Source: Clostridia bacterium | Lineage (GTDB): Bacteria; Bacillota; Clostridia; Christensenellales; Borkfalkiaceae | Reading direction: 5' to 3' | NCBI GenBank assembly: GCA_029061155.1 | Contig: JAIDSQ010000068.1 | Location: 1-37,194 of the forward strand | DNA: 37,194 nt | Shown: positions 2,402-31,630 of the stretch, one piece after another | How positions within the stretch are numbered: position 1 is the first letter of the stretch | Layout: every line of letters begins with the position of its first letter | Position numbers and translations under genes: made by a program | The notes under the pieces: generated by a model | Seen by the model: the letters and a program-made list of their open reading frames with translations, nothing else | Database searches by the model: none | What the model was told of the DNA's origin: nothing

Positions 2402-2776
2402 TTATTTACGTTTAATCTCTACTTTAATCTGTCCCTGCTCTCCCGCCTGAATTTCGCCGCACAGGCTTTTGATAATGTACAGCCCCCTTCCGCTTTCGGC
2501 GAATACGTCGGGCGCGGAACGGCACAAATCAAGCCCGATAAGACTTTGCGCGCTTACAGTAATTTCAATCTTGTCGCCTGTAAGCGTACCCGTGAACTGC
2601 GCCTCGTCGCCGCCGTGACGAATGACGTTTGTAATAAGCTCGCACGAAACAAGCTTACTTGAAAAAATCTCGTCGTCGCCGACGCCCGCGCCGCGCAAGA
2701 AGTCGGCAAAGGCTTGCAGCTCGCAATTCATATTTTTTAAGTTGTCAACCTTAAAACTTATTTTCAAAGCAGACAT
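2402..2776 (-). CDS. RsbW/SpoIIAB-type anti-sigma serine kinase (HATPase_c_2)
   Basis: A 124-residue GHKL-fold ATPase of the anti-sigma family. Visible motifs are the N box CELITNVIRHG (about residues 45-55) and the G box GRGLYIIKSL (about 95-104). Family members bind a cognate sigma factor and phosphorylate a STAS anti-anti-sigma protein. It is the last gene of a four-gene operon, directly after the sigma gene, whereas SpoIIAB and RsbW are usually encoded just before theirs. Start choice: the ATG at 2776 has GAGGG only one base upstream, which is too close. A TTG at 2767 has the same GAGGG ten bases upstream and overlaps the sigma read-through stop as TTGA, the same style as the ATGA junctions upstream. 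I list the ATG as the outer limit and think the TTG is more likely used. Confidence 0.85.
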   Translation of the reverse strand: MSALKISFKVDNLKNMNCELQAFADFLRGAGVGDDEIFSSKLVSCELITNVIRHGGDEAQFTGTLTGDKIEITVSAQSLIGLDLCRSAPDVFAESGRGLYIIKSLCGEIQAGEQGQIKVEIKRK

Positions 2777-2883
2777 TCCCTCAGTTTTTCGACTATTTTT
2801 CTTTCGGCGCGCGAAACGAACATCTGACTTACGCCAAGTATTTTGCCCACTTCCGCCTGTGATTTTCCCTGTACGAATCTTTA
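2764..2883 (-). pseudogene. detached 3' part of the sigma factor gene (region 4.2), in frame beyond a TAA
   Basis: Reading the sigma frame through the TAA at 2883-2881 gives 38 more codons before TGA at 2766-2764. They encode RFVQGKSQAEVGKILGVSQ and then MFVSRAERKIVEKLREC, a clear region 4.2 helix-turn-helix most like SigB and SigF. With one residue in place of the stop, the total would be 241 residues, a normal length for the family. The stop sits where relatives have leucine, so one change from TTA to TAA explains it. No plausible separate start or ribosome binding site precedes this piece. Confidence 0.88.
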
Positions 2884-3489
2884 CGCAACAACCTTCTGTT
2901 CGGTGGGGTCAAGCTTTTTTATTTCCGCCCTTAACGCCTCGCCGTCCTCAAAGCTTTCAAACTTGTCGGACATATCGGGGATAATATCGTAAAGATGACC
3001 TTCGCCGTCCTCAACCCCTACTTTTGCGTCAAGGCTTACGGGCGAGCGGTATTCAAGCGCCTCGATAACCTGTTCCTCCGTTACCCCGAGTTTTTCCGAA
3101 AGCTGTTTTACAGTGGGTTTCACACCGTTATATTTATAGTAATCGTTCATTTCTGCACGAACCTTTGAGGCAAGCGAATACAGCCTTCTCGGCGGGCGTA
3201 CCGAACGCGAGTAGTCGCGGAAGTAATTTTTGATAATTCCCGTAACGGTTGGAGTTATGTACGTGGTGAACTGAACGCCCATGTCGGGGTCGAAACGCTC
3301 GACTCCCGAAATTAGACCTTCGGACGCAACCTGAAAAAGATCGTCGTACTCCACCCCTCTGCCCGCAAATTTCTTGGCGAGAATTTCGGCGACGTATATG
3401 TAGTTTTCAACGAGCCTGTTCCTTATTGTGATATCGCCTGTCCGGCGGTATTCGCGGAACAGCCCGTCCGCCTCTTTCGCGTCAATCAT
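2881..3489 (-). CDS. SigB/SigF/SigG-family sigma factor, interrupted by an in-frame stop before region 4.2
   Basis: This 202-residue ORF encodes sigma-70 region 2 (DDLFQVASEGLISGVERFDP, about residues 49-68, and the TTYITPTVTGIIKNYFRDY segment) and region 3 (about 95-150). It stops at the beginning of region 4 after LDPTEQKVVA. The family is the general-stress or forespore class controlled by partner-switching kinases, as the neighbours suggest. The start ATG overlaps the stop of the upstream gene as ATGA. As it stands the protein lacks the -35-binding helix-turn-helix and should not direct normal transcription. The missing 38 codons are present in frame downstream. The lesion could be a real loss-of-function mutation, a strain variant, a sequencing error or read-through. 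TAA is used as a normal stop by many genes here, so code reassignment is unlikely. Confidence 0.9.
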   Translation of the reverse strand: MIDAKEADGLFREYRRTGDITIRNRLVENYIYVAEILAKKFAGRGVEYDDLFQVASEGLISGVERFDPDMGVQFTTYITPTVTGIIKNYFRDYSRSVRPPRRLYSLASKVRAEMNDYYKYNGVKPTVKQLSEKLGVTEEQVIEALEYRSPVSLDAKVGVEDGEGHLYDIIPDMSDKFESFEDGEALRAEIKKLDPTEQKVVA

Positions 3490-3833: not shown

Positions 3834-4138
3834 TATCTTATCTCCATTATGGTGTCGAGCGAGCATATCTGGAAAAGCTTTCTTATCCTAGGCTGAACGT
3901 TTTTAAGTACGGTAGTATGCCCTTCGGCTTTAAGCGTCTTGAAAATCTTTACAAACGTGCCGAGCATTGTGCTGTCGATAAACGTAAGCGCAGTGCAGTC
4001 GAACAGCATATCCTTTTTATCGTGCCTGTAAGCCGCCATAACCTCGGCGTAAAAGTCTTCGCTGGTGGCGGAATCTATTTCACCCGAAAGCGAAAACTCA
4101 AGCGCGTTATCGGTAGAAACGAGTTTTACCTGTTGCAT
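3833..4138 (-). CDS. STAS-domain anti-anti-sigma factor (SpoIIAA/RsbV-like)
   Basis: A 101-residue STAS domain. The phosphorylatable motif is FIDSTMLGTFV, corresponding to the DS(S/T)G motif of SpoIIAA and RsbV with Met in place of Gly. In the family the unphosphorylated form releases the sigma factor from its anti-sigma kinase, and a PP2C phosphatase such as SpoIIE resets it. The start at 4138 is chosen because GAGGG lies about seven bases upstream; the track start at 4225 adds a sequence with no such site. It is the first gene of the operon and is divergent from citrate synthase. I saw no convincing sigma-A promoter for it in 4139-4213. A GCGTT/AACGC dyad lies at 4187-4200. Confidence 0.88.
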   Translation of the reverse strand: MQQVKLVSTDNALEFSLSGEIDSATSEDFYAEVMAAYRHDKKDMLFDCTALTFIDSTMLGTFVKIFKTLKAEGHTTVLKNVQPRIRKLFQICSLDTIMEIR

Positions 4139-4213
4139 AATTACCCTCTTAAAAAAAATTACTACTAATTTTATAAACACTTTTAAGCGTTCCGAAACGC
4201 AGGCGCATATAAT

Positions 4214-4243
4214 TTGACACGCCACGCACCGTTATGATAAAAT
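4214..4243 (+). promoter_or_regulatory. promoter of citrate synthase, apparently leaderless
   Basis: TTGACA (4214-4219), an 18-nt spacer and TAAAAT (4238-4243). Only six bases separate the -10 element from the ATG at 4250, so transcription should begin at or next to the A of the start codon. No Shine-Dalgarno sequence is present. Confidence 0.6.
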
Positions 4244-20145: not shown

Positions 20146-21715
20146 TTTTTAATCTACCTCTCAATTTTATTCTGAACGCTACCAAAACCACACAGCAAGC
20201 CGCCGATATTGCAACGCCTGCCGCGCACAGTCCTATAAGATAGCCGTAACCTTCAAAATCTTCGGCGTCCACTATCGCGGTAACGCTGCCGTCACGGTTG
20301 TATCTGTAATCTCTAAGCTCTAACGCATTGACTTCAAACAGCCACTCGGTTTCATCGCCGAACGTGTACTCCTTAGCCAGATAACGGCTGTACCGTCCGT
20401 TAAATTCCAAACCTACGGAAATACTGTCAAGCTCGCCCGTGCCGTCGCCCCTCAGATAATAACCGTAAAAGTACTCGCCGTCGACACCTTCTATACCGTC
20501 GCACTGCACGGCATAGGTAATTTCGTTTTCAATATACTTTACTTCAACGTTCACGCCGTCCGGGTCGTACTTCCTTGAAAGGTCGGCGTCAAGTTCATAC
20601 CCGCCCTGAATATAGGCGACAAATTCATCCTTATCTGCAAACTCGCGGTTAGTGTATTCTATTCCTATAGGCAAGGCGCAAAGCAAAAGCATTATAACCG
20701 AAAGAAGTCCGACCGTAAAAGCAAACGTGAACGACGCGGCGTTGGTGTACAGCGTGCGCGCGTTAATGAGCTTTGCCTCGCGGATTATGGCTGCGTTTAC
20801 GCGCGTCAAATCAATTTCGGAGGCAAGTGTAGTCACGCGTGATATGTGCACGATTGCAATATTGATTGCCGAGGCAACAAGAACGCAGGCTGCTATATCC
20901 ACAACTTTAACCCAGCCTGTCAAAGGCAGATTCCAGCAAAAATGCATTAATATGCTTGTCATAAGCACGAACAGACTGAACGAGCGGTAAGGTTTTTTTA
21001 TGCTGAAAGCCCATCCTATAGCGCCCGTCCACAGAAGGTGCGTACACATCGAGGAAAGCCCTCTTTCCACAAACAATATAATTATATTCCCGACACCCGT
21101 ACTGTAAAACTGAACGAGTTTATCCGAATAATAAAAGATATACCCCATATCCTCTATTACCGAAAAGCCCGCGCCGACAGAGGCGGCAATCAAAAAGCTT
21201 GCATACGAATTTTTCTGTTTGCACACAAGTATTGCTATTAGTGCGGGGGCCGCCTTGCACGTTTCCTCGACAAGCCCCGTAATAAGCGCGCCCACCCAGT
21301 CGTTATTTACTTTGATTACAGAAAACGCAAGCTGGCTTAAAACGCCAGATATCGTTCCGCCTATTACAAGTATTGCAAGGAGTACAAAAAGCGCAATGTC
21401 GCGCTTGGGGTACAGCTCGAAAAAAAGTATGATAAACGGAATTGTAAACGTTATACCGCCGAGGAAGGTTATCGACGGCAAATACAGCATATTGTCGGTA
21501 AGTCGGAGTATGACTATGTTTACCGTAAATAAAATGAACAGTGCAAGAAAGGCGCGCACGTACAGAAATGGATACGCGCCAGTAACTCCGCTGTTGTCCT
21601 CGTTAAGACCGCGCGAAAAAATTTCCCTGTACTCCGCTCTGGAGTGGGCACGGAAAGTTTCCTTGAAAAAGTATACAATTTTCGCACGCGCTACAACGCC
21701 CTTATTCTTATCCAT
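20135..21715 (-). CDS. PrsW-family intramembrane protease with extra C-terminal ectodomain
   Basis: A 526-residue membrane protein. The PrsW signatures are present: GLVEETCKAAPAL (about 148-160), GFSVIEDMGYIFYY, HLLWTGAIGWAF with a preceding ERG, and LMHFCWNLPL. Residues about 45-280 contain eight or so helices carrying these motifs. A further helix (about 325-350) and an extracytoplasmic region (about 355-490) follow, then a last helix and a basic tail. The latter part has no counterpart in minimal PrsW. PrsW of Bacillus cleaves the anti-sigma factor RsiW; no anti-sigma/ECF pair is nearby. The gene overlaps mtaB by eight bases and hit by eleven, so it is embedded in a translation-related operon. 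Confidence 0.87.
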   Translation of the reverse strand: MDKNKGVVARAKIVYFFKETFRAHSRAEYREIFSRGLNEDNSGVTGAYPFLYVRAFLALFILFTVNIVILRLTDNMLYLPSITFLGGITFTIPFIILFFELYPKRDIALFVLLAILVIGGTISGVLSQLAFSVIKVNNDWVGALITGLVEETCKAAPALIAILVCKQKNSYASFLIAASVGAGFSVIEDMGYIFYYSDKLVQFYSTGVGNIIILFVERGLSSMCTHLLWTGAIGWAFSIKKPYRSFSLFVLMTSILMHFCWNLPLTGWVKVVDIAACVLVASAINIAIVHISRVTTLASEIDLTRVNAAIIREAKLINARTLYTNAASFTFAFTVGLLSVIMLLLCALPIGIEYTNREFADKDEFVAYIQGGYELDADLSRKYDPDGVNVEVKYIENEITYAVQCDGIEGVDGEYFYGYYLRGDGTGELDSISVGLEFNGRYSRYLAKEYTFGDETEWLFEVNALELRDYRYNRDGSVTAIVDAEDFEGYGYLIGLCAAGVAISAACCVVLVAFRIKLRGRLKNEG

Positions 21716-22916
21716 TAACTACGGCAAGCGCTCCGTCTTTATATAATTCTTTTAATTGTACTTTATATTTCTTTCCCGCGGCAAGTTCGCCCTGAACGTA
21801 AACGCGGATATAGTTGCCCGTATAACCGCAGGTGTACCCCTCTGAAAAGTCCTCTGAAATAATTTCATAATATGCGCCGAGGCGCTTTGATATAAACTCT
21901 TTCGCGCACTTTTCTCCTTCCTGTAAAAGACGGTGAAGGCGCTGCGACTTTACTTCGGGCGGCAGGTCTTTTAACTTATAAGCAACCGTTCCCTCCCTCG
22001 GAGAAAACGCGAAAGCGTGTATTCTTGAAAACCCCGCCTTCTCTATTATGGACAGGCTCTCTTCAAAATCTTCCTGTGTTTCGGTTGCGAAACCCGCAAT
22101 AATGTCCGTGGTTATGCCCGCGTCGGGGAAGTATTTGTATATAAGCGCGCACTTTTTAAGATACTCTTCGCGGGTGTAATGCCTGTTCATGCTTTTAAGC
22201 ACGCGCGTGCTGCCGCTCTGCAACGACAGGTGGAACTGCGGAGCAAAATCGGCAAGTCCTTTTAAAGCCGTCAGAAGTTCGTCGGTTATTACACTACATT
22301 CAAGCGAACCTAATCTTATGCGCTTATTTACGCCGTGAAGTGCGCAAATTAATTTATCCAACCCGCCTTCGTACGAAGAAATGTTTATTCCGTTTAAAAC
22401 TATCTCGGGGCTGTCGGTAAGTTCGACTTCGCGCACAACGTCCTCTACCGTGCGTGAAGTTTCTCTTCCGCGAAGGTAGGGTATTATGCAGTACGAACAG
22501 AAGTTATTACAGCCGTCCTGAATTTTAATGAAGGCGCGCGTCTTGGTCTGTTTGGGGTAGGCAAGCCTTTCGCCGCCCGCGCCGTAGACTTTGGTAAACG
22601 CCTTTAAAACTTCTTCCTTTTTTCTTGCGCCCGTGACGAAGGTTACGCCGCGCTCTTCAAAACTCTTTTTATCCTTTTCTGAGGCGCACCCGCACACGAA
22701 AATGTTTGCCTGAGGGTTGAACTTCCGCACCCTCGCAACAAGCTGCCTGCTCTTCTTTTCAGCCTCGCGCGTGACTGCGCAAGTATTGAGTACATACGCG
22801 TCGGCAAAGCTAAGCTTGTCGTCGGTCTGCCAGCCTGCCGCCTCCAACGCAGACATAATCGAGGCGGACTCCACCTCGTTAACCTTACAGCCGAGGGTAA
22901 AAACTACGGCTTTCAT
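21708..22916 (-). CDS. mtaB: tRNA t6A37 methylthiotransferase MtaB
   Basis: A 402-residue radical-SAM enzyme that converts t6A37 of tRNA to ms2t6A37. Visible parts are the UPF0004 N-terminal domain (FTLGCKVNEVESASI, LNTCAVTREAEKKSRQ, VCGCASEK), the radical-SAM cysteine motif CNNFCSYCIIPYLRGRETSR (about 135-154), and a C-terminal TRAM domain (GYTGNYIRVYV and what follows). The first half carries the cysteines for the auxiliary cluster. Length is a little under the usual 430. ATGA overlap with rsmE shows operon membership. Confidence 0.93.
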   Translation of the reverse strand: MKAVVFTLGCKVNEVESASIMSALEAAGWQTDDKLSFADAYVLNTCAVTREAEKKSRQLVARVRKFNPQANIFVCGCASEKDKKSFEERGVTFVTGARKKEEVLKAFTKVYGAGGERLAYPKQTKTRAFIKIQDGCNNFCSYCIIPYLRGRETSRTVEDVVREVELTDSPEIVLNGINISSYEGGLDKLICALHGVNKRIRLGSLECSVITDELLTALKGLADFAPQFHLSLQSGSTRVLKSMNRHYTREEYLKKCALIYKYFPDAGITTDIIAGFATETQEDFEESLSIIEKAGFSRIHAFAFSPREGTVAYKLKDLPPEVKSQRLHRLLQEGEKCAKEFISKRLGAYYEIISEDFSEGYTCGYTGNYIRVYVQGELAAGKKYKVQLKELYKDGALAVVNG

Positions 22917-23641
22917 TTAAGTTCTCCAAGCGCAAACGCCGTAACCGCCAACAGGCTTATTGCCGCGGTTTCTGCGCGGAGTATTCTTTTGCCGAGCGTA
23001 ATTCCGCTGAACCCGAGACTTTCAGAAAGGGCGTATTCCTCTTGCGAGAACCCGCCTTCGCTGCCCACTACAAGCGCGGTTGAACCGTCTATAGTTGAAA
23101 TATCACTTTCCGAGGTTGCTATAAACTCGCACGCAAACAGTTTGTTATTGTAATTCTGCGCCGATTGAAGGGCGTCTTCCAAATTGTCAAAATACTCTAT
23201 CAAAGGCGCGCGCGAACGCATACACTGCTTTGCCGCCTCGCGTGCGACCTTGTTTAGACGCTCGAGTTTATTTTCGTTCATAAACGCCGAACAGTATTCC
23301 GAAGAGAATATTCCTATTTTGCTTGCGCCCAGCTCGCACGCCTTCTGCACTACAAGCTCGGTCTTGTCGCCTTTAAGCGCCCCGCATAAAAGGTAAATGT
23401 CGGCGTTAGGTTCTCTGTCGCCTGTTTCCGCCTTTATTATATGGGCGGTGAGACTGCGCTTTTCAACCTTGGCTACGATTGCCGTGTATTCCTGACCGCT
23501 GCCGTCAAGGAGAATTATTTCACTGCCCTCTTCAACGCGCTGTACTGTCTTGGCGAGGACGAACTCGTCGCCGTCAAGAATGACTTCTTGCGTTTTGGGG
23601 TAGTCTATTGTATCGATAAAAAATCTCTTGCGCCCGCTCAT
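22913..23641 (-). CDS. rsmE: 16S rRNA (uracil(1498)-N3)-methyltransferase RsmE
   Basis: A 242-residue SPOUT methyltransferase that methylates N3 of U1498 in 16S rRNA. It has the PUA-like N-terminal domain (residues about 1-70), the ALKGDKTELVVQKACELGASKI motif region, and the knot ALVVGSEGGFSQEEYAL followed by LGKRILRAETAAISLLAV. The length is typical. Both ends overlap neighbours by four bases (ATGA). Confidence 0.94.
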   Translation of the reverse strand: MSGRKRFFIDTIDYPKTQEVILDGDEFVLAKTVQRVEEGSEIILLDGSGQEYTAIVAKVEKRSLTAHIIKAETGDREPNADIYLLCGALKGDKTELVVQKACELGASKIGIFSSEYCSAFMNENKLERLNKVAREAAKQCMRSRAPLIEYFDNLEDALQSAQNYNNKLFACEFIATSESDISTIDGSTALVVGSEGGFSQEEYALSESLGFSGITLGKRILRAETAAISLLAVTAFALGELK

Positions 23642-24579
23642 GCTTTAAACGAAAGTGCGAACCATTCGCCGTCCTTGATTTGTTTATCGGGGGTAAGTCC
23701 CTGCGCGGTGAATGCTTTAAGCACCGCCTCAAGTCTGCTTTCGATTATTCCGCTTAAGATGAGAATACCGCCCTTTTTGAGATTTTTGGGGATAGAGGGT
23801 GCAAGACGGCAAAGTATTTCCGCCGTGATGTTTGCAAGCATTATATCGCCCTTTATATCTGCATTTTCCAAAAGGTCCGAACGGCTTACTTTCACGCTGT
23901 CCTCTACGCCGTTTATCTTGCAGTTGTGCTGCGCGCTCTTTACGGCTATTTCGTCAATGTCTGTAAGGTATGCAAACTTTGCGCCGAGCTTGATTGCCGA
24001 TATTCCTAAAATACCGCTGCCGCAACCCACGTCTATACACACGGACTGCGGGGTAAGGTACTGCTGTAAAAGCTTTAAGCACATTGAAGTGGTTTCGTGT
24101 TCGCCAGTCCCGAACGCCATATTGTTATCTAACTTTACGACCTCTTCTCCGTCCTTCTTTTTGTACTCAATCCATTCGGGGCAGACGACTATTTTTTCGC
24201 CTATGTGCAAAGGACGGAAGTGCTTGCGCCATATTTCAAGCCAATCGTCGCCTTCTATCTCGCGTTTTGTCATTTCAAGCGAGCCGAAGTTTATAAAGCC
24301 CTGACCGTTTAAAGCCGCCTCTTCCGCGTCCTGTCTTATAGCGGGAAGAACTTTGTCCGTTTCGTCCAAAGAAATGAACGCCTTAACAAGCACGTCGCTG
24401 CCCTGACTTAAAAGACTGTCGTCCATATAGTCCCAGTACATGGCTTTGTCGTTGCGCAGAGCGATTACGTCCTTTACGTCGGAAATCGCCACGCCGTAGT
24501 TGGTGTAGCGCCAAAGTATGTCGGCAATTATTTCACTGCCCTCGTTTGTGGTATGTATGGTAAGTTCGGTAAATTTCAT
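23638..24579 (-). CDS. prmA: ribosomal protein L11 methyltransferase PrmA
   Basis: A 313-residue SAM-dependent enzyme that methylates ribosomal protein L11. The L11-recognition N-terminal domain (about 1-110) is followed by the catalytic domain with FGTGEHETTSMCLKLL (about 156-171), the SAM-binding CIDVGCGSGILGISAIKLGA, and MLANITAEIL, which is the NxxA-like active-site segment. The ATG overlaps the mgtC stop as TAATG and the stop overlaps rsmE as ATGA. In many Firmicutes prmA follows dnaJ; here an MgtC-like gene takes that place. Confidence 0.95.
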   Translation of the reverse strand: MKFTELTIHTTNEGSEIIADILWRYTNYGVAISDVKDVIALRNDKAMYWDYMDDSLLSQGSDVLVKAFISLDETDKVLPAIRQDAEEAALNGQGFINFGSLEMTKREIEGDDWLEIWRKHFRPLHIGEKIVVCPEWIEYKKKDGEEVVKLDNNMAFGTGEHETTSMCLKLLQQYLTPQSVCIDVGCGSGILGISAIKLGAKFAYLTDIDEIAVKSAQHNCKINGVEDSVKVSRSDLLENADIKGDIMLANITAEILCRLAPSIPKNLKKGGILILSGIIESRLEAVLKAFTAQGLTPDKQIKDGEWFALSFKA

Positions 24580-25235
24580 TATCTGCTGCTCTCGGTCTTT
24601 TCAATTGAAATTACAAAGGGATAGTCGTTTATAGCGTTGTAAATAAACGCCGCGTCAATCTGTTTTTTAGTGTTGATTACGGCGTAATAAATTATCTCGT
24701 CATCCTGCTTTTTTGCCCTGAATTCAGAAAAGGTTTTTATGTCGAATAACTTTTTAATTACATCGGGACAATCGTCAGTAGGGCTTTTGAAGGTAACTTT
24801 AATTTCGTTGTAATATTTATCTTTGAAAATGTTCAAAGGTATATGAAAAATAAACTGTACCGCTATTACTATAGCCGTTGCGCCGAGCGATACGAAGTAC
24901 ATTCCTGCACCCACCGCCATACCTATCGCCGCTGTCAACCATATACCCGCCGCCGAAGTAAGACCGTGTACCGACTGCTGACGGTACATAATCATTCCCG
25001 CGCCGAGAAAGCTTATTCCCGAAACGACCTGCGAGGCTATGCGCGCAGCGTCGAAGTCGGCTGAATCCGAAAAACCGTATTTTGAAACAATCATTAAAAT
25101 ACACGCGCCCGCGGCAACCACGGCGTGTGTACGTATTCCCCCGACCTTTAAGCGGATCTGGCGCTCAAAACCCATCATAAAGCCGAGTGCCACCGCGAGG
25201 ATTATTCTTAAAAGATATTCAACCCAATCAGGCAT
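24579..25235 (-). CDS. MgtC/SapB-family membrane protein
   Basis: A 218-residue protein. The N-terminal 130 residues are hydrophobic with the family pattern LGFMMGFERQIRLKVGGIRTHAVVA, then ASQVVSGISFLGAGMIM and LTSAAGIWLTAAIGMAVGAG. A cytoplasmic domain of about 80 residues follows, with ACT-like secondary structure. Family members have been tied to magnesium homeostasis and to modulation of ATP synthase in pathogens, but most clostridial ones are uncharacterised. GAGGTGAACT precedes the ATG. It is the first gene of the operon and has its own promoter. Confidence 0.9.
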   Translation of the reverse strand: MPDWVEYLLRIILAVALGFMMGFERQIRLKVGGIRTHAVVAAGACILMIVSKYGFSDSADFDAARIASQVVSGISFLGAGMIMYRQQSVHGLTSAAGIWLTAAIGMAVGAGMYFVSLGATAIVIAVQFIFHIPLNIFKDKYYNEIKVTFKSPTDDCPDVIKKLFDIKTFSEFRAKKQDDEIIYYAVINTKKQIDAAFIYNAINDYPFVISIEKTESSR

Positions 25236-25308: not shown

Positions 25309-25341
25309 ATACGCCCGCGGCAATGATTGCCGCAGGCGTAT
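25309..25341. terminator. stem-loop terminator after the flavoprotein gene
   Basis: ATACGCCCGCGGCAAT, one loop base, ATTGCCGCAGGCGTAT. It sits between the mgtC promoter and the stop of the minus-strand thioredoxin reductase-like gene. The T run on the minus-strand side is weak. Confidence 0.7.
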
Positions 25342-25347
25342 ACTTAT

Positions 25348-26202
25348 TTATTTTTTTAACTGTGCCAGATACTCGACGGCGGAGTGTGCGGCAACATTGC
25401 CTTCGCCCGCAGACTTAACGTACTGGTAAGGTCTGCCGGTGCAGTCGCCCGCGGCGAATATACCCGCTATGTTGGTAGACAGGTCGCGTTTAACCATTAT
25501 ATGCCCCCCTTCGACAGCCAATCCGTGAACGAGAGTTGCAGGTGATACCGCGCCTTTTAATATGAACATTCCGTCGATATCCAGCCCGCCGCCCTTATAT
25601 TCGACGCGTTCCAAGCGGTTACTGCCCGTAAGTTTTAAGGGTGCTTTTAAAACTATCTCCGCGTTTTTGGATTTAATTTCATAACCTGAATACAGCGGAA
25701 AAACATAAGCTTTCTTGGCAATATCCGCCAAAAACTCTATTTCGTGCTCGTATTTTTTATCAGTGCACAAAACGCCTATAGTCTTGCCCTTGTATAAAAA
25801 TCCGTCGCAGGTTGCGCAGTAGCTTACCCCTCTGCCGACGAACTGTTCCTCTCCTTCTATAGGTTTTACGTTTTCAACGCCTATGCACAGTATTACGCAC
25901 TTTGCCTCGTACTGCTTATCTCCTGCAAGTAAAGTGAAATAGCCGTCCGTTACGTACACGCCGCTTACAACTTCCTGCATAAGCTTTATGTTCATTCCCT
26001 CGTAATGGTTTTGAAAAGTCAAGGCAAGCTGACTGCCCGTTATATCGGGAAGTCCGGGATAGTTTTTAATGAGGTGCGCCTGTTCCACTTTTTTTGAAAC
26101 GCTGCCGCTTGAAAACCATATAAAATTTTTATCGAGCGCTTTAAGCGTCAAAACGGCTGAAACGCCCGCAGGCCCGCTGCCTATTACGGCGATATCATAC
26201 AT
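25348..26202 (-). CDS. thioredoxin reductase-like flavoprotein, probably ferredoxin-dependent (FFTR-like)
   Basis: A 284-residue member of the low-molecular-weight thioredoxin reductase family. The FAD dinucleotide fold is at the N-terminus (IAVIGSGPAGVSAVLTL), the redox-active pair is in CATCDG (about 131-136), and the second FAD motif is GIFAAGDCTGRP. The domain that binds NADPH in classical enzymes is altered: neither the GGGxSA nucleotide motif nor the HRRxxxR stretch is present; the corresponding part reads GVLCTDKKYEHEIEFLA and FPLYSGYE. This matches the clostridial ferredoxin-dependent flavin thioredoxin reductases (FFTR). Start 26202 is chosen because GAGG lies just upstream. The adjacent [FeFe] hydrogenase supports a ferredoxin-based role. 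No thioredoxin gene is adjacent. Confidence 0.85.
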   Translation of the reverse strand: MYDIAVIGSGPAGVSAVLTLKALDKNFIWFSSGSVSKKVEQAHLIKNYPGLPDITGSQLALTFQNHYEGMNIKLMQEVVSGVYVTDGYFTLLAGDKQYEAKCVILCIGVENVKPIEGEEQFVGRGVSYCATCDGFLYKGKTIGVLCTDKKYEHEIEFLADIAKKAYVFPLYSGYEIKSKNAEIVLKAPLKLTGSNRLERVEYKGGGLDIDGMFILKGAVSPATLVHGLAVEGGHIMVKRDLSTNIAGIFAAGDCTGRPYQYVKSAGEGNVAAHSAVEYLAQLKK

Positions 26203-26251
26203 AATATTACCTCTGATTTTGCAATACTTATTACCTTTTCGTACCAATTTT

Positions 26252-26274
26252 AAACCCCGCATTATGCGGGGTTT
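26252..26274. terminator. terminator hairpin after the hydrogenase gene
   Basis: AAACCCCGCAT with its complement ATGCGGGGTTT forms a perfect stem. It lies between the hydrogenase stop at 26278 and the flavoprotein gene. Confidence 0.85.
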
Positions 26275-26277
26275 AGT

Positions 26278-27792
26278 TTAATCCATTTTAGAAAGCTTTT
26301 GTGCCAAATCTTCCATTTCTTTGGGAGGAAGTTTTGTCCCGCTTGTCTTTACCGTCTGCTCGACGACAATCTTTGCGCGCTCGGGCGGGATTATCGTTCC
26401 CACACCTGCTACGCATCCGCCGGGACAGCCCATACCCTCAATCATATATCCGTTGAGCTTGCCCGCTTTTGCAAGCGTTAAAATCTTCTTACAGTCGGCA
26501 AGTCCTTCCGCGTGCTGAATTTTTACCTGCGTACCAGGGTAATACTCGTTTATACATTGTTCGATTGCACTTGCAACCCCGCCTGCGCATGCGTAACCTC
26601 TGCCCGCGCCCGTAGCCTCGATATTTACGGGAAGTTCGTCAAGCTCCTCAAGTTTCAAGCCTTTGGCGTCGAACATACCGGCAAGTTCTTCAAATGTGAT
26701 TACAAAGTCAACGTAACTTCTTATTGTTCTTCTTGACGCCTCAAGCTTTTTAGCCGCGCACGGACCTATGAACACTACCCTTGCGTTGGGGCGGTTTACC
26801 TTTATTGAACGAGCGGTTGCAACCATTGGCGTAAGCTCTTCCGAAACCTCGGAGGCGAGATCGGGGAACTGCGTTTTTACAAGAACTGCCCAAGCGGGAC
26901 AACAGCTTGTAAAAAGGAAGGGAAGTTCGCCTGTGGCGACTTTATTTACATAATGATGCGCCTCGGCGATACAGCCTACGTCCGCGCCGACAGCGACTTC
27001 AAACACGTCTTTAAAGCCGAGTGCAAGCAGGGCGGACTTCATCTTGCCGGGGGTAACCTTTGCTCCAAACTGACCTATGATTGCGGGCGCAACGGCGGCT
27101 ACTATATCGTCGCCCTTCTTGATTGCCTGAATTAACTGATAAATCTGCGACTTGTCAGCAATTGCGCCGAAGGGGCAAGCCGACATACACTGACCGCATG
27201 CCACGCACTTATCGTTGTCTATGTGCGCCCTTCCGTACTCGTCGGTAGAAATTGCCTTGACTCCGCAAGCCGCGGCGCAAGGTCTTATGTGGTGCGCGAT
27301 TGCGTCGTAGGGACACGAGGCTTTACATCTTCCGCACTTTATGCACTTGGACTGGTCGATAAACGATTTACCGTTCACAATGGAAACGGCGCCCTTAGGG
27401 CAGTTTTTAATGCACGAATGAGCCACGCAGTTGCGGCACTGGTCTGAAACGACGTACTCGTTGTCGGGGCACTTATCGCACGCCGAAGGGATTACCTGCA
27501 TAAGAGGGGGTTCGTAATATTTTTCCGCTATATTACTCTTATCCACGCCAGCGGTGATATGTACGGGTTTATTTGCCGGTCTTAAAGATAAGCCCATTGC
27601 AAGACGGACGCGTTCAGACGCTATCTGTCTTTCGCGGTAAATGCTTTCGCGGTACTTGGGAATCTCGTCGGGAGTTATCTTGAAGGGAATTTCTTCAAGA
27701 TCGCTTGCGGGGTTATCCGACTCGTACGCGACGCGCGCAACTTCGGTAAATACTTTTCTTCTTAAATCGGTTACTACACTTTGACTTTTCAT
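26278..27792 (-). CDS. [FeFe] hydrogenase, group B-like, with N-terminal ferredoxin clusters
   Basis: A 504-residue iron-sulfur protein that should interconvert H2 with protons using ferredoxin electrons. Residues about 100-215 contain many cysteines: a cluster near CDKCPDNEYVVSDQCRNC and two [4Fe-4S] motifs, CIKCGRCKASCP and CVACGQCMSACP. The H-cluster ligands are all present: TSCCPAW (L1), GPCAAKKLE (L2) and EGMGCPGGCVAG (L3). The spacing and the GPCAAKK form resemble group B (not the classical CpI-like group A with MPCxxK). Physiological partners of group B enzymes are poorly known. Start is the ATG at 27792 with GAGG seven bases upstream; the track's TTG start at 27798 overlaps that site. 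No hydF/E/G maturase genes are in the window. Confidence 0.9.
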   Translation of the reverse strand: MKSQSVVTDLRRKVFTEVARVAYESDNPASDLEEIPFKITPDEIPKYRESIYRERQIASERVRLAMGLSLRPANKPVHITAGVDKSNIAEKYYEPPLMQVIPSACDKCPDNEYVVSDQCRNCVAHSCIKNCPKGAVSIVNGKSFIDQSKCIKCGRCKASCPYDAIAHHIRPCAAACGVKAISTDEYGRAHIDNDKCVACGQCMSACPFGAIADKSQIYQLIQAIKKGDDIVAAVAPAIIGQFGAKVTPGKMKSALLALGFKDVFEVAVGADVGCIAEAHHYVNKVATGELPFLFTSCCPAWAVLVKTQFPDLASEVSEELTPMVATARSIKVNRPNARVVFIGPCAAKKLEASRRTIRSYVDFVITFEELAGMFDAKGLKLEELDELPVNIEATGAGRGYACAGGVASAIEQCINEYYPGTQVKIQHAEGLADCKKILTLAKAGKLNGYMIEGMGCPGGCVAGVGTIIPPERAKIVVEQTVKTSGTKLPPKEMEDLAQKLSKMD

Positions 27793-27823
27793 ATTCAAAC
27801 CTCATACGTATTTCGCTTTTTAT

Positions 27824-27852
27824 ATTATATCATAAACTTATACGAATTACAA
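27824..27852 (-). promoter_or_regulatory. promoter of the [FeFe] hydrogenase gene
   Basis: Minus strand: TTGTAA (27852-27847), 17 nt, TATAAT (27829-27824). The leader is about 25 nt with a GAGG ribosome site. Confidence 0.7.
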
Positions 27853-29261: not shown

Positions 29262-29368
29262 TAGTTTACAGGTATTTTTTAAACTTAGTTAACCCTACCG
29301 AGCGGTTTTTTAGTTATTTTTCTGCATTTTTAAACAATTTAAGACAAAATAACCACCCGATATATGTG

Positions 29369-29374
29369 TATAAT
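29369..29374 (+). promoter_or_regulatory. -10 element of spoIIE, apparently leaderless
   Basis: A consensus TATAAT six bases before the ATG at 29381. No good -35 is visible at 15-19 bases, so an activator may be needed. I see no clear Spo0A box. Confidence 0.5.
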
Positions 29375-29380
29375 TTTGCT

Positions 29381-31630
29381 ATGCATATTAAGATTAACGC
29401 CAAAAGCGCGCTTTTATACGCCGTTTATGCCGCGGCATTACTTTTGTTAAACAAGACCGTCAGCGGAGTTCCCCTCTCTGTCGCACTGTACTTTGCAATG
29501 CTGATGTGCGGAGCGAATATATTTCTTTCGCCCGCATTATATATGCTTTGCGCAATTGTGCATCTGAGGCTCATAACCTGCCTTCTCGCAATTTATGAGG
29601 GCGCATTTCTGGGCGTTATAACCTTTATCTACCGCAGATGCCGCCGTAAAATAAGGTTGGAGGCTGGCGCATACATTTTGATTGCGCTTGCGCCGTATAT
29701 CGCCTTTGCCCCCATTGACGGTATAGATTTGATAAGCAACGAATACATATTGAAATCAATTGCCGCCGCAGGCACAACGCTGTTTACATACTTTTGTTTC
29801 AAAACAGTTTATGCACTCATTTACAGAACAATGCGTTGCCGTCTGAGAGAGGACGAGCTTTTGTGTTGCGGAGTAACTTTTGCCGCCATAGGTACAGGCT
29901 TTTACAACATAGCTGGAATATACGCATACACTGCGTTTGCGGCGGGCGCCGTCGTATTCTTTACAAGACTTTTGAGAAATCCTTCCGCAATTATCGCCGC
30001 GCTCATACTCGCATTCCCGCCCGCAATTTTGTCGCTTTCACTTACTCCCGTAACCGTTTACGTAATAGCCGCGTCCGTCGCACTGCTTTTTGCAGGTGCA
30101 GGACGTGCGGCGAGCGGGATTGTAACCTGCGCGCTTACCGCAGCTTACTTTTATTTTACTGGCGGTTTTAACTGCCCGCCGCTTATGATAGCACTCAGGG
30201 CTGTAATTATATTTTGTTTCATATTGCCGCCTTCTATACCGTCCGACCAAACAATGTGCAATTTAAAAGACAGACTTACCGTAACGCAGGTACTTTCAGA
30301 CACCGCAGTACAGCGCAGCCGAAGGCGGACGGGCGACAAGCTCTACAGAATTTCCGAAGTGTTCCGCGAGATTGAGTGCGCGTTTAAAGCGCTTGATGAA
30401 AACATCGACGACCGCGCGCTTAAAGGGCGAATGTTTACCGAACTGAAAGAAAAGTGCTGTAAAAACTGCGAGCGGGCAAAAAAATGTTCCGTAACAAACG
30501 TTTATACGGGTTTCATCAAGCTTATCGACGCCGGGTGCGTAAAAGGCAAGGTAAACCTTATTGATCTCCCGTCCGAAGTCACGCTGAACTGCACTATTCC
30601 CGCCGAAGTTTTAGCAAGACTCAACTCGCTTTTGGCGGAATACAGGCGCTATATGACCGAGGCGGAAAACGCGCGCAGCGGGCGTGCACTGCTTGCAGAA
30701 CAGGCGCACGGCGTTGCCGACGTTATGAAAAACTGCGCGGTGGAGCTTTGCACAAGCCCCTCAGAGGATAACAGATTAAACAGAAAAATAATTACCGAGC
30801 TTTCCACCCGCGGAATTTCCTGCCCCGAACTTTTTGTGAGCGGCGACGAAGTAACCGCCGTGATTTGCGGAAAAGCCGACGTGGACGTTATGACGCAAAT
30901 AATTTCGCGCGTGCTCGAAAGAAAATATGCGCTCAAAGACTCTATATGTTACGACAACGAAAAGCGCTGCTACATATTCGGCGTGCCGCCGAGGCTTGAC
31001 GCGGTGTTCGGAGTAGCTTACGCAATCAAGAGCGGCGAAAGTGTGTCGGGAGATACTCACACCGTAATACGCATAAACGAACACAGCTTTTTAATGGCGC
31101 TTTCCGACGGTATGGGAAGCGGCGAATACGCAAAAAAAGTTTCCGCCACCGCAATTTCGCTTATAGAGGCGTTTTACCGCGCGCAAATGCCCGAAGGCAC
31201 CGTGCTTAAAACTATAAATAAACTGCTGTCTTTTAACCGCGACGAACGTTTTACGTGCATAGACATTGCCGCAGTAAACCTTGAAACGGGCATTGCCGAC
31301 TTTGTCAAGATAGGCTCGCCGGCAGGTATCATCATAAGAGAAGGCGAAATAAAGATTCTGGAAAGCGAAAGCCTGCCCCTCGGAATACTCGATAATCTGC
31401 GCCCCACAGTCTGTTCAGAACAGCTAAGAGGCGGGGACATAGTAGTGTTTATGAGCGACGGAATAACTTCGGCATTCCCTTCCGCAACCGAATTGTATGA
31501 ATTTATGCGCGGATTGAAACCGCTGAACCCGCAAAACCTTGCGGATAAAATACTTGCAGGCGCCAGGGCGCGAAGTAAAAAGACCGCCGATGATATGACG
31601 GTGCTGTGCACAAGAATATTTGAAACTTAA
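29381..31630 (+). CDS. spoIIE: stage II sporulation protein E (SpoIIE), membrane PP2C phosphatase
   Basis: A 749-residue SpoIIE. The N-terminal ~290 residues are hydrophobic with about ten helices. A central regulatory region (about 300-530) contains the cysteine cluster CCKNCERAKKCS. The C-terminal PP2C phosphatase domain (about 545-749) keeps the metal motifs MALSDGMGSGEYAKK, GDIVVFMSDGITSAF and KKTADDMTVLC. In sporulating Firmicutes SpoIIE dephosphorylates SpoIIAA to activate sigma-F at the division septum. The start is the ATG at 29381, six bases after TATAAT; the track's start at 29366 (GTG) would lie inside the promoter. It is monocistronic, ending at a strong terminator. The matching anti-anti-sigma candidate is at 3833-4138. 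Confidence 0.93.
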   Translation: MHIKINAKSALLYAVYAAALLLLNKTVSGVPLSVALYFAMLMCGANIFLSPALYMLCAIVHLRLITCLLAIYEGAFLGVITFIYRRCRRKIRLEAGAYILIALAPYIAFAPIDGIDLISNEYILKSIAAAGTTLFTYFCFKTVYALIYRTMRCRLREDELLCCGVTFAAIGTGFYNIAGIYAYTAFAAGAVVFFTRLLRNPSAIIAALILAFPPAILSLSLTPVTVYVIAASVALLFAGAGRAASGIVTCALTAAYFYFTGGFNCPPLMIALRAVIIFCFILPPSIPSDQTMCNLKDRLTVTQVLSDTAVQRSRRRTGDKLYRISEVFREIECAFKALDENIDDRALKGRMFTELKEKCCKNCERAKKCSVTNVYTGFIKLIDAGCVKGKVNLIDLPSEVTLNCTIPAEVLARLNSLLAEYRRYMTEAENARSGRALLAEQAHGVADVMKNCAVELCTSPSEDNRLNRKIITELSTRGISCPELFVSGDEVTAVICGKADVDVMTQIISRVLERKYALKDSICYDNEKRCYIFGVPPRLDAVFGVAYAIKSGESVSGDTHTVIRINEHSFLMALSDGMGSGEYAKKVSATAISLIEAFYRAQMPEGTVLKTINKLLSFNRDERFTCIDIAAVNLETGIADFVKIGSPAGIIIREGEIKILESESLPLGILDNLRPTVCSEQLRGGDIVVFMSDGITSAFPSATELYEFMRGLKPLNPQNLADKILAGARARSKKTADDMTVLCTRIFET

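Follow-up and report, generated by a model that had tools for sequence, protein, structure and literature searches.

In Clostridium acetobutylicum, ferredoxin-dependent flavin thioredoxin reductases (FFTRs) have been solved alone and with thioredoxin (PDB 6GNA, 6GNC and 6GND). Clostridioides difficile encodes two enzymes of the same class, TrxB1 and TrxB4, which are devoid of NAD(P)H motifs and whose genes lie in operons with trxA, alongside two NADPH-type reductases; the motifs GxGxxA and HRRxxxR, which mark NAD(P)H enzymes, have been used to separate the two reductase classes (PMC10880999). For the cyanobacterial FFTR of Gloeobacter violaceus (PDB 5J60 and 6XTF), measured potentials favour ferredoxin, the FAD being too negative for NADPH (PMC12796991). 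Reduced ferredoxin is also the substrate of the group B [FeFe]-hydrogenases of gut bacteria, which reoxidise ferredoxin reduced by pyruvate:ferredoxin oxidoreductase (PFOR; PMC12578642). Here we analyzed a 37,194-nucleotide stretch of DNA from an uncultured Clostridia gut bacterium of the Borkfalkiaceae (the window), in which the gene for a flavoprotein with predicted FFTR activity adjoins that of a group B hydrogenase and, unlike the situation in C. acetobutylicum, probably provides the sole thioredoxin reductase.

The two genes are encoded on the minus strand, and the span 25348-27792 named in the original prediction extends from the stop codon of the FFTR to the ATG of the hydrogenase. The FFTR gene occupies 25348-26202 and encodes 284 residues from ATG 26202, where its homologues also start; the start at 26262 given in the list of open reading frames is too early. 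Alignment of the window protein with five NADPH-type sequences and 6gna revealed that it contains the FAD motifs GSGPAG (residues 8-13) and AAGDC and the redox-active disulfide CATC (25807-25818, minus strand; residues 129-132, with Cys129 and Cys132), and that it lacks both GxGxxA and HRRxxxR, while the HRR motif and a glycine-rich stretch are kept in all five NADPH-type sequences. A deletion after the second NADPH motif is common to the window protein and 6gna, and the length, fold and AAGDCTGxPYQ tail motif of the C. acetobutylicum enzymes are likewise shared. The absence of the NADPH motifs, which had been noted for the window protein in the original prediction, extends to 60 of 60 relatives: neither motif occurs in any, and CxxCD is present in every one. 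The columns of the FAD motifs and of both CATC cysteines are invariant in an alignment.

The best phmmer matches of the flavoprotein were 6gna, 6gnd and 6gnc (E 1.8e-76 to 8.9e-75), with NADPH enzymes next at 5e-32, and with a profile built from 28 relatives 6gna scored 389 bits, whereas no NADPH enzyme exceeded 224. The structure modelled with AlphaFold2 (mean pLDDT 88) superimposed on 6gna/6gnc with TM-scores of 0.85-0.88, compared to approximately 0.57 for most NADPH enzymes; similarity to the Gloeobacter FFTR was also evident (TM 0.76) despite only 22% sequence identity and the absence here of the cyanobacterial C-terminal Trp tail. Identification as an NADPH thioredoxin reductase was rejected, as the protein scores 174 bits with TIGR01292, below the cut-off of 343, and the NADPH motifs are missing. 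By sequence, motifs and modelled fold the flavoprotein thus belongs with the clostridial FFTRs, in keeping with the original prediction; enzymes of this kind have been described before in Clostridium, and ferredoxin would be its electron donor. Carriage of the FFTR by phage was also considered and rejected, as only two weak or partial matches were obtained, both from unannotated human faecal 'bacteriophage' records. The thioredoxin-reductase-like genes in these records, MT835515.1 (35% identity) and MT838743.1 (48% identity, partial), may be bacterial DNA.

A TIGR01292 search of 37 congeneric genomes recovered FFTRs from most of them and no separate NADPH-type thioredoxin reductase, the exception being a 553-residue AhpF-type protein in one genome (G025). 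NADPH enzymes that match this model with high scores are present in the majority of the other genera of the order. The absence of a separate NADPH reductase from the 37 congeners is a stronger result than the gene adjacency, and on this basis the bacterium and its congeners probably have no thioredoxin reductase besides the FFTR. Among the 37-60 congeneric genomes searched, four carry the hydrogenase and are missing the FFTR (G001, G023, G029 and G040); these assemblies are 67-94% complete, and the G040 contig stops at the hydrogenase gene. When thioredoxin genes were sought, as had been proposed, a single clear one was found in the genome of the window (G000:C119:1630-1923), on a different contig and not adjoining the FFTR, and nearly every congener has a thioredoxin gene. 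The arrangement thus differs from that of C. difficile, as trxA is not linked to the FFTR gene and the search for a separate NADPH-type reductase was negative. A promoter motif common to trxA and the FFTR gene was not seen.

The adjoining gene (26278-27798, minus strand) encodes an [FeFe]-hydrogenase, hereafter HYDB, of 506 residues from TTG 27798 or 504 residues from ATG 27792, the TTG lying two codons upstream of the ATG. It matches PF02906, and its TIGR04105 score of 613 bits, well above the cut-off of 450, allows the earlier designation "group B-like" to be replaced by group B. As in the enzymes of gut bacteria the H-cluster ligands are intact: Cys300, Cys347, Cys458 and Cys462, together with the proton-relay residue Cys299, do not vary among the 62-63 homologues encoded at the fetched loci. 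The partners of this group had been described as poorly known, a statement outdated by the finding that PFOR-reduced ferredoxin is reoxidised. The genome encodes a second hydrogenase, an NADH-dependent group A6 enzyme located beside a NuoF-like subunit (G000:C163).

Maturation genes, which the original prediction had suggested looking for, were unexpectedly missing: no match over cut-off to HydE, HydF or HydG was detected in any of the 37 congeneric genomes, 24 of which are at least 90% complete. Sub-threshold matches to the HydG and HydF models are probably related radical-SAM proteins and other GTPases, respectively. Four other genera of the order have HydE and HydG matches over cut-off, three of them with HydF as well, and the three maturases were also undetected in about 20 of the 24 other genera of the order that were sampled. 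For Rhodospirillum rubrum, an [FeFe]-hydrogenase without maturases was judged probably inactive (PMC4967309), and a literature search returned no case of an [FeFe]-hydrogenase without maturases from Clostridia. The absence of HydE, HydF and HydG leaves H2 chemistry itself unproven in these bacteria, and the maintenance across the genus of two hydrogenases with intact H-cluster ligands argues for function. One could envisage that HYDB and the A6 enzyme are both active, their H-clusters being built by a novel route that does without HydE, HydF and HydG, and that the two hydrogenases and the sole thioredoxin reductase jointly determine how a single ferredoxin pool is divided between H2 and thiol reduction; we regard this as a rather doubtful proposition.

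Of 59 congeneric genomes with the hydrogenase, 40 have the FFTR after it on the same strand, as read from the coordinates of the loci. The adjacency seen in the window is thus conserved across 40 congeneric species, and the refuting case named with the original prediction, adjacency in no relative, does not apply; no published hydrogenase-FFTR gene pair was found in a literature search, and an FFTR neighbour distinguishes these loci from the group B hydrogenases described from gut bacteria. Among 391 genomes sampled across the class, FFTRs were detected in 57 at E <= 1e-45, hydrogenases in 158 and both in 32, of which about 30 belong to other genera; in these, no placed pair was adjacent, as judged by comparing coordinates by hand. 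In the co-occurrence check that had been proposed, the two genes are thus only weakly associated (odds ratio of 2.1 with p 0.013, a statistic that ignores descent). Downstream of the FFTR on the minus strand of the window lie mgtC (24579-25235), identified by profile scans, and prmA (23638-24579), rsmE (22913-23641) and mtaB (21708-22916), named from their protein sequences. In the fetched neighbourhoods of the linked group the order hydrogenase-FFTR-(mgtC)-prmA-rsmE-mtaB is kept across relatives, with FFTR-prmA retained in 33 of 35 and hydrogenase-FFTR, by definition of the group, in 40 of 40, while the genes upstream of the hydrogenase have changed repeatedly. The conserved order is not special to the hydrogenase-FFTR pair. 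As the FFTR lies between the hydrogenase and prmA-rsmE-mtaB, conserved equally on both sides, its adjacency to the hydrogenase is weak evidence for a hydrogen-to-thiol route. In two related species (L070 and L073; G006 and G017), approximately 1.2 kb with an opposite-strand open reading frame lies between hydrogenase and FFTR.

A different arrangement was found in other congeners, in which the hydrogenase abuts or lies near prmA, some members also being without the prmA link, and the FFTR follows glycerol kinase, in many cases accompanied by genes for a permease and a metal pump; the position behind glycerol kinase is kept across more than 10 species (L097, L098, L100, L102, L123, L125, L126 and L142). 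Phylogenetic analysis placed the 40 hydrogenase-linked FFTRs on one side of a branch with SH-aLRT support of 100, and in a second, more careful tree the branch parting the linked FFTRs from the glycerol-kinase group and the FFTRs of sister genera had support of 98/99. In the careful tree an outgroup sequence on a very long branch (G094) is placed among the linked FFTRs, which makes a single origin likely, not proven. The trees thus suggest that the adjacency likely arose once, by a single move in the ancestor of about 40 species. Elsewhere in the window, a SigB/SigF/SigG-type sigma factor gene (2776-3489, minus strand) is broken by one in-frame TAA after 202 codons; genes nearby specify an RsbW-like ATPase (2405-2776) and a STAS antagonist (3836-4225). 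The genome of the window has no SigG match over cut-off, though a SpoIIE-like phosphatase gene (29366-31630, plus strand) is located two genes from the hydrogenase.

The sequence between the HYDB stop and the FFTR start contains a terminator- or attenuator-like hairpin (26251-26275, minus strand; fold z -4.3), which is found in 27 of 36 relatives, compared to 0.4 expected by shuffling, and whose sequence varies between relatives. The terminator predicted between the genes is thus real as a hairpin, but its T-run is short (GGGGTTTAAAATT) and a simple terminator scan gives no score. A strong 15-bp inverted repeat directly follows the FFTR stop (25309-25341; fold z -5.7). Upstream of HYDB, a promoter scan identified a candidate sigma-70 promoter, TTGTAA-17-TATAAT with a TG before the second hexamer (27824-27852, minus strand), although sigma-70-type sites in the region overall show no excess over shuffles; no such site was found on the minus strand between HYDB and the FFTR. 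Most hydrogenase-FFTR gaps are below 100 nt and many are only 46-80 nt, with a median of 81 nt between blast-aligned ends. Given the hairpin, and as no sigma-70 promoter is evident between the genes, the simplest reading is that transcription of the FFTR may depend on transcripts that start at the hydrogenase promoter and partly read through. A sporulation-type sigma F/G promoter before the FFTR appeared suggestive by eye and by a two-element score, and was rejected as the -10 element alone was equally enriched before the control genes prmA and galM; an unbiased 7-mer test returned nothing decisive. Sequences resembling GGCAATAAT recur near the FFTR start in several species (window 26203-26240 and equivalents), often without a clear ribosome-binding site, and could reflect a leaderless transcript, although they are not significant against controls.

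Given these observations, the pairing could be read in several ways. The original prediction linked the proteins in a route from ferredoxin to H2 or to thiols, of which both identities and the adjacency stand, while a functional module is not supported. Such a dedicated module could run from H2 through ferredoxin and FFTR to thioredoxin, for example after oxygen stress, with the hydrogenase reversed or acting as a ferredoxin buffer, or the hydrogenase could guard the FFTR against over-reduction. Use of ferredoxin by both proteins, as judged by family, and their short spacing on the same strand in 40 species are consistent with this, as are a ferredoxin/flavoprotein route to thioredoxin attributed to Hammel et al. 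1983 in PMC12796991, the O2-induction of the C. difficile FFTR TrxB1 and the presence of ferredoxins and an iron hydrogenase in its spores (PMC10880999). However, the pair is limited to one genus, prmA stays as close to the FFTR as the hydrogenase does, a hairpin separates the genes, class-wide co-occurrence is weak and other congeners keep their FFTR with glycerol kinase, and we therefore consider a dedicated module improbable. At the other extreme, the genes may share nothing but position, the hairpin being a true terminator and the FFTR having a promoter of its own. The frequency of the hairpin, the strong second hairpin after the FFTR and the recurrent GGCAATAAT-like sequences would fit separate transcription, but in many gaps a promoter would scarcely fit downstream of the hairpin, the motif tested was unspecific and no sigma-70 site lies between the genes; pure accident thus seems a possible though less probable reading. 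That the flavoprotein instead serves a different disulfide, or draws on another flavoprotein or an unrecognised nucleotide, is very unlikely: its donor is not readable from sequence, but nothing direct favours such a role, its fold and motifs match those of the solved FFTRs, and the thioredoxin of nearly every congener would otherwise have no reductase.

We instead favour, with reasonable confidence, an explanation in which the FFTR, as the probable sole thioredoxin reductase of the genus, and HYDB are parallel users of one ferredoxin pool, their adjacency being inherited from a single move. The FFTR would take single electrons from reduced low-potential ferredoxin into its FAD, from which they would reach the CATC disulfide and finally the thioredoxin encoded on the other contig, while the neighbouring hydrogenase would drain the same reduced ferredoxin to H2, such that the two would not be consecutive steps of a dedicated chain. 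The FFTR gene would have come between the hydrogenase gene and prmA in the ancestor of about 40 species and been inherited thereafter; we infer both the sharing of ferredoxin and the direction of this move. Against this explanation, hydrogenase and FFTR have stayed together in 40 species while upstream genes changed, which could reflect selection. On balance, common descent and the use of one electron pool probably account for the pairing better than a dedicated hydrogen-to-thiol pathway does.

These results indicate that a conserved pair of neighbouring genes can be an accident of lineage. The missing maturases raise the testable question of how, or whether, these hydrogenases become active. 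Ferredoxin-only reduction of thioredoxin, so far described as the sole system in a few cyanobacteria, apparently extends to an entire genus of Clostridia that are uncultured and in part derive from animal guts, and, if this is true, protein repair in these bacteria would depend directly on fermentation and hydrogen release.
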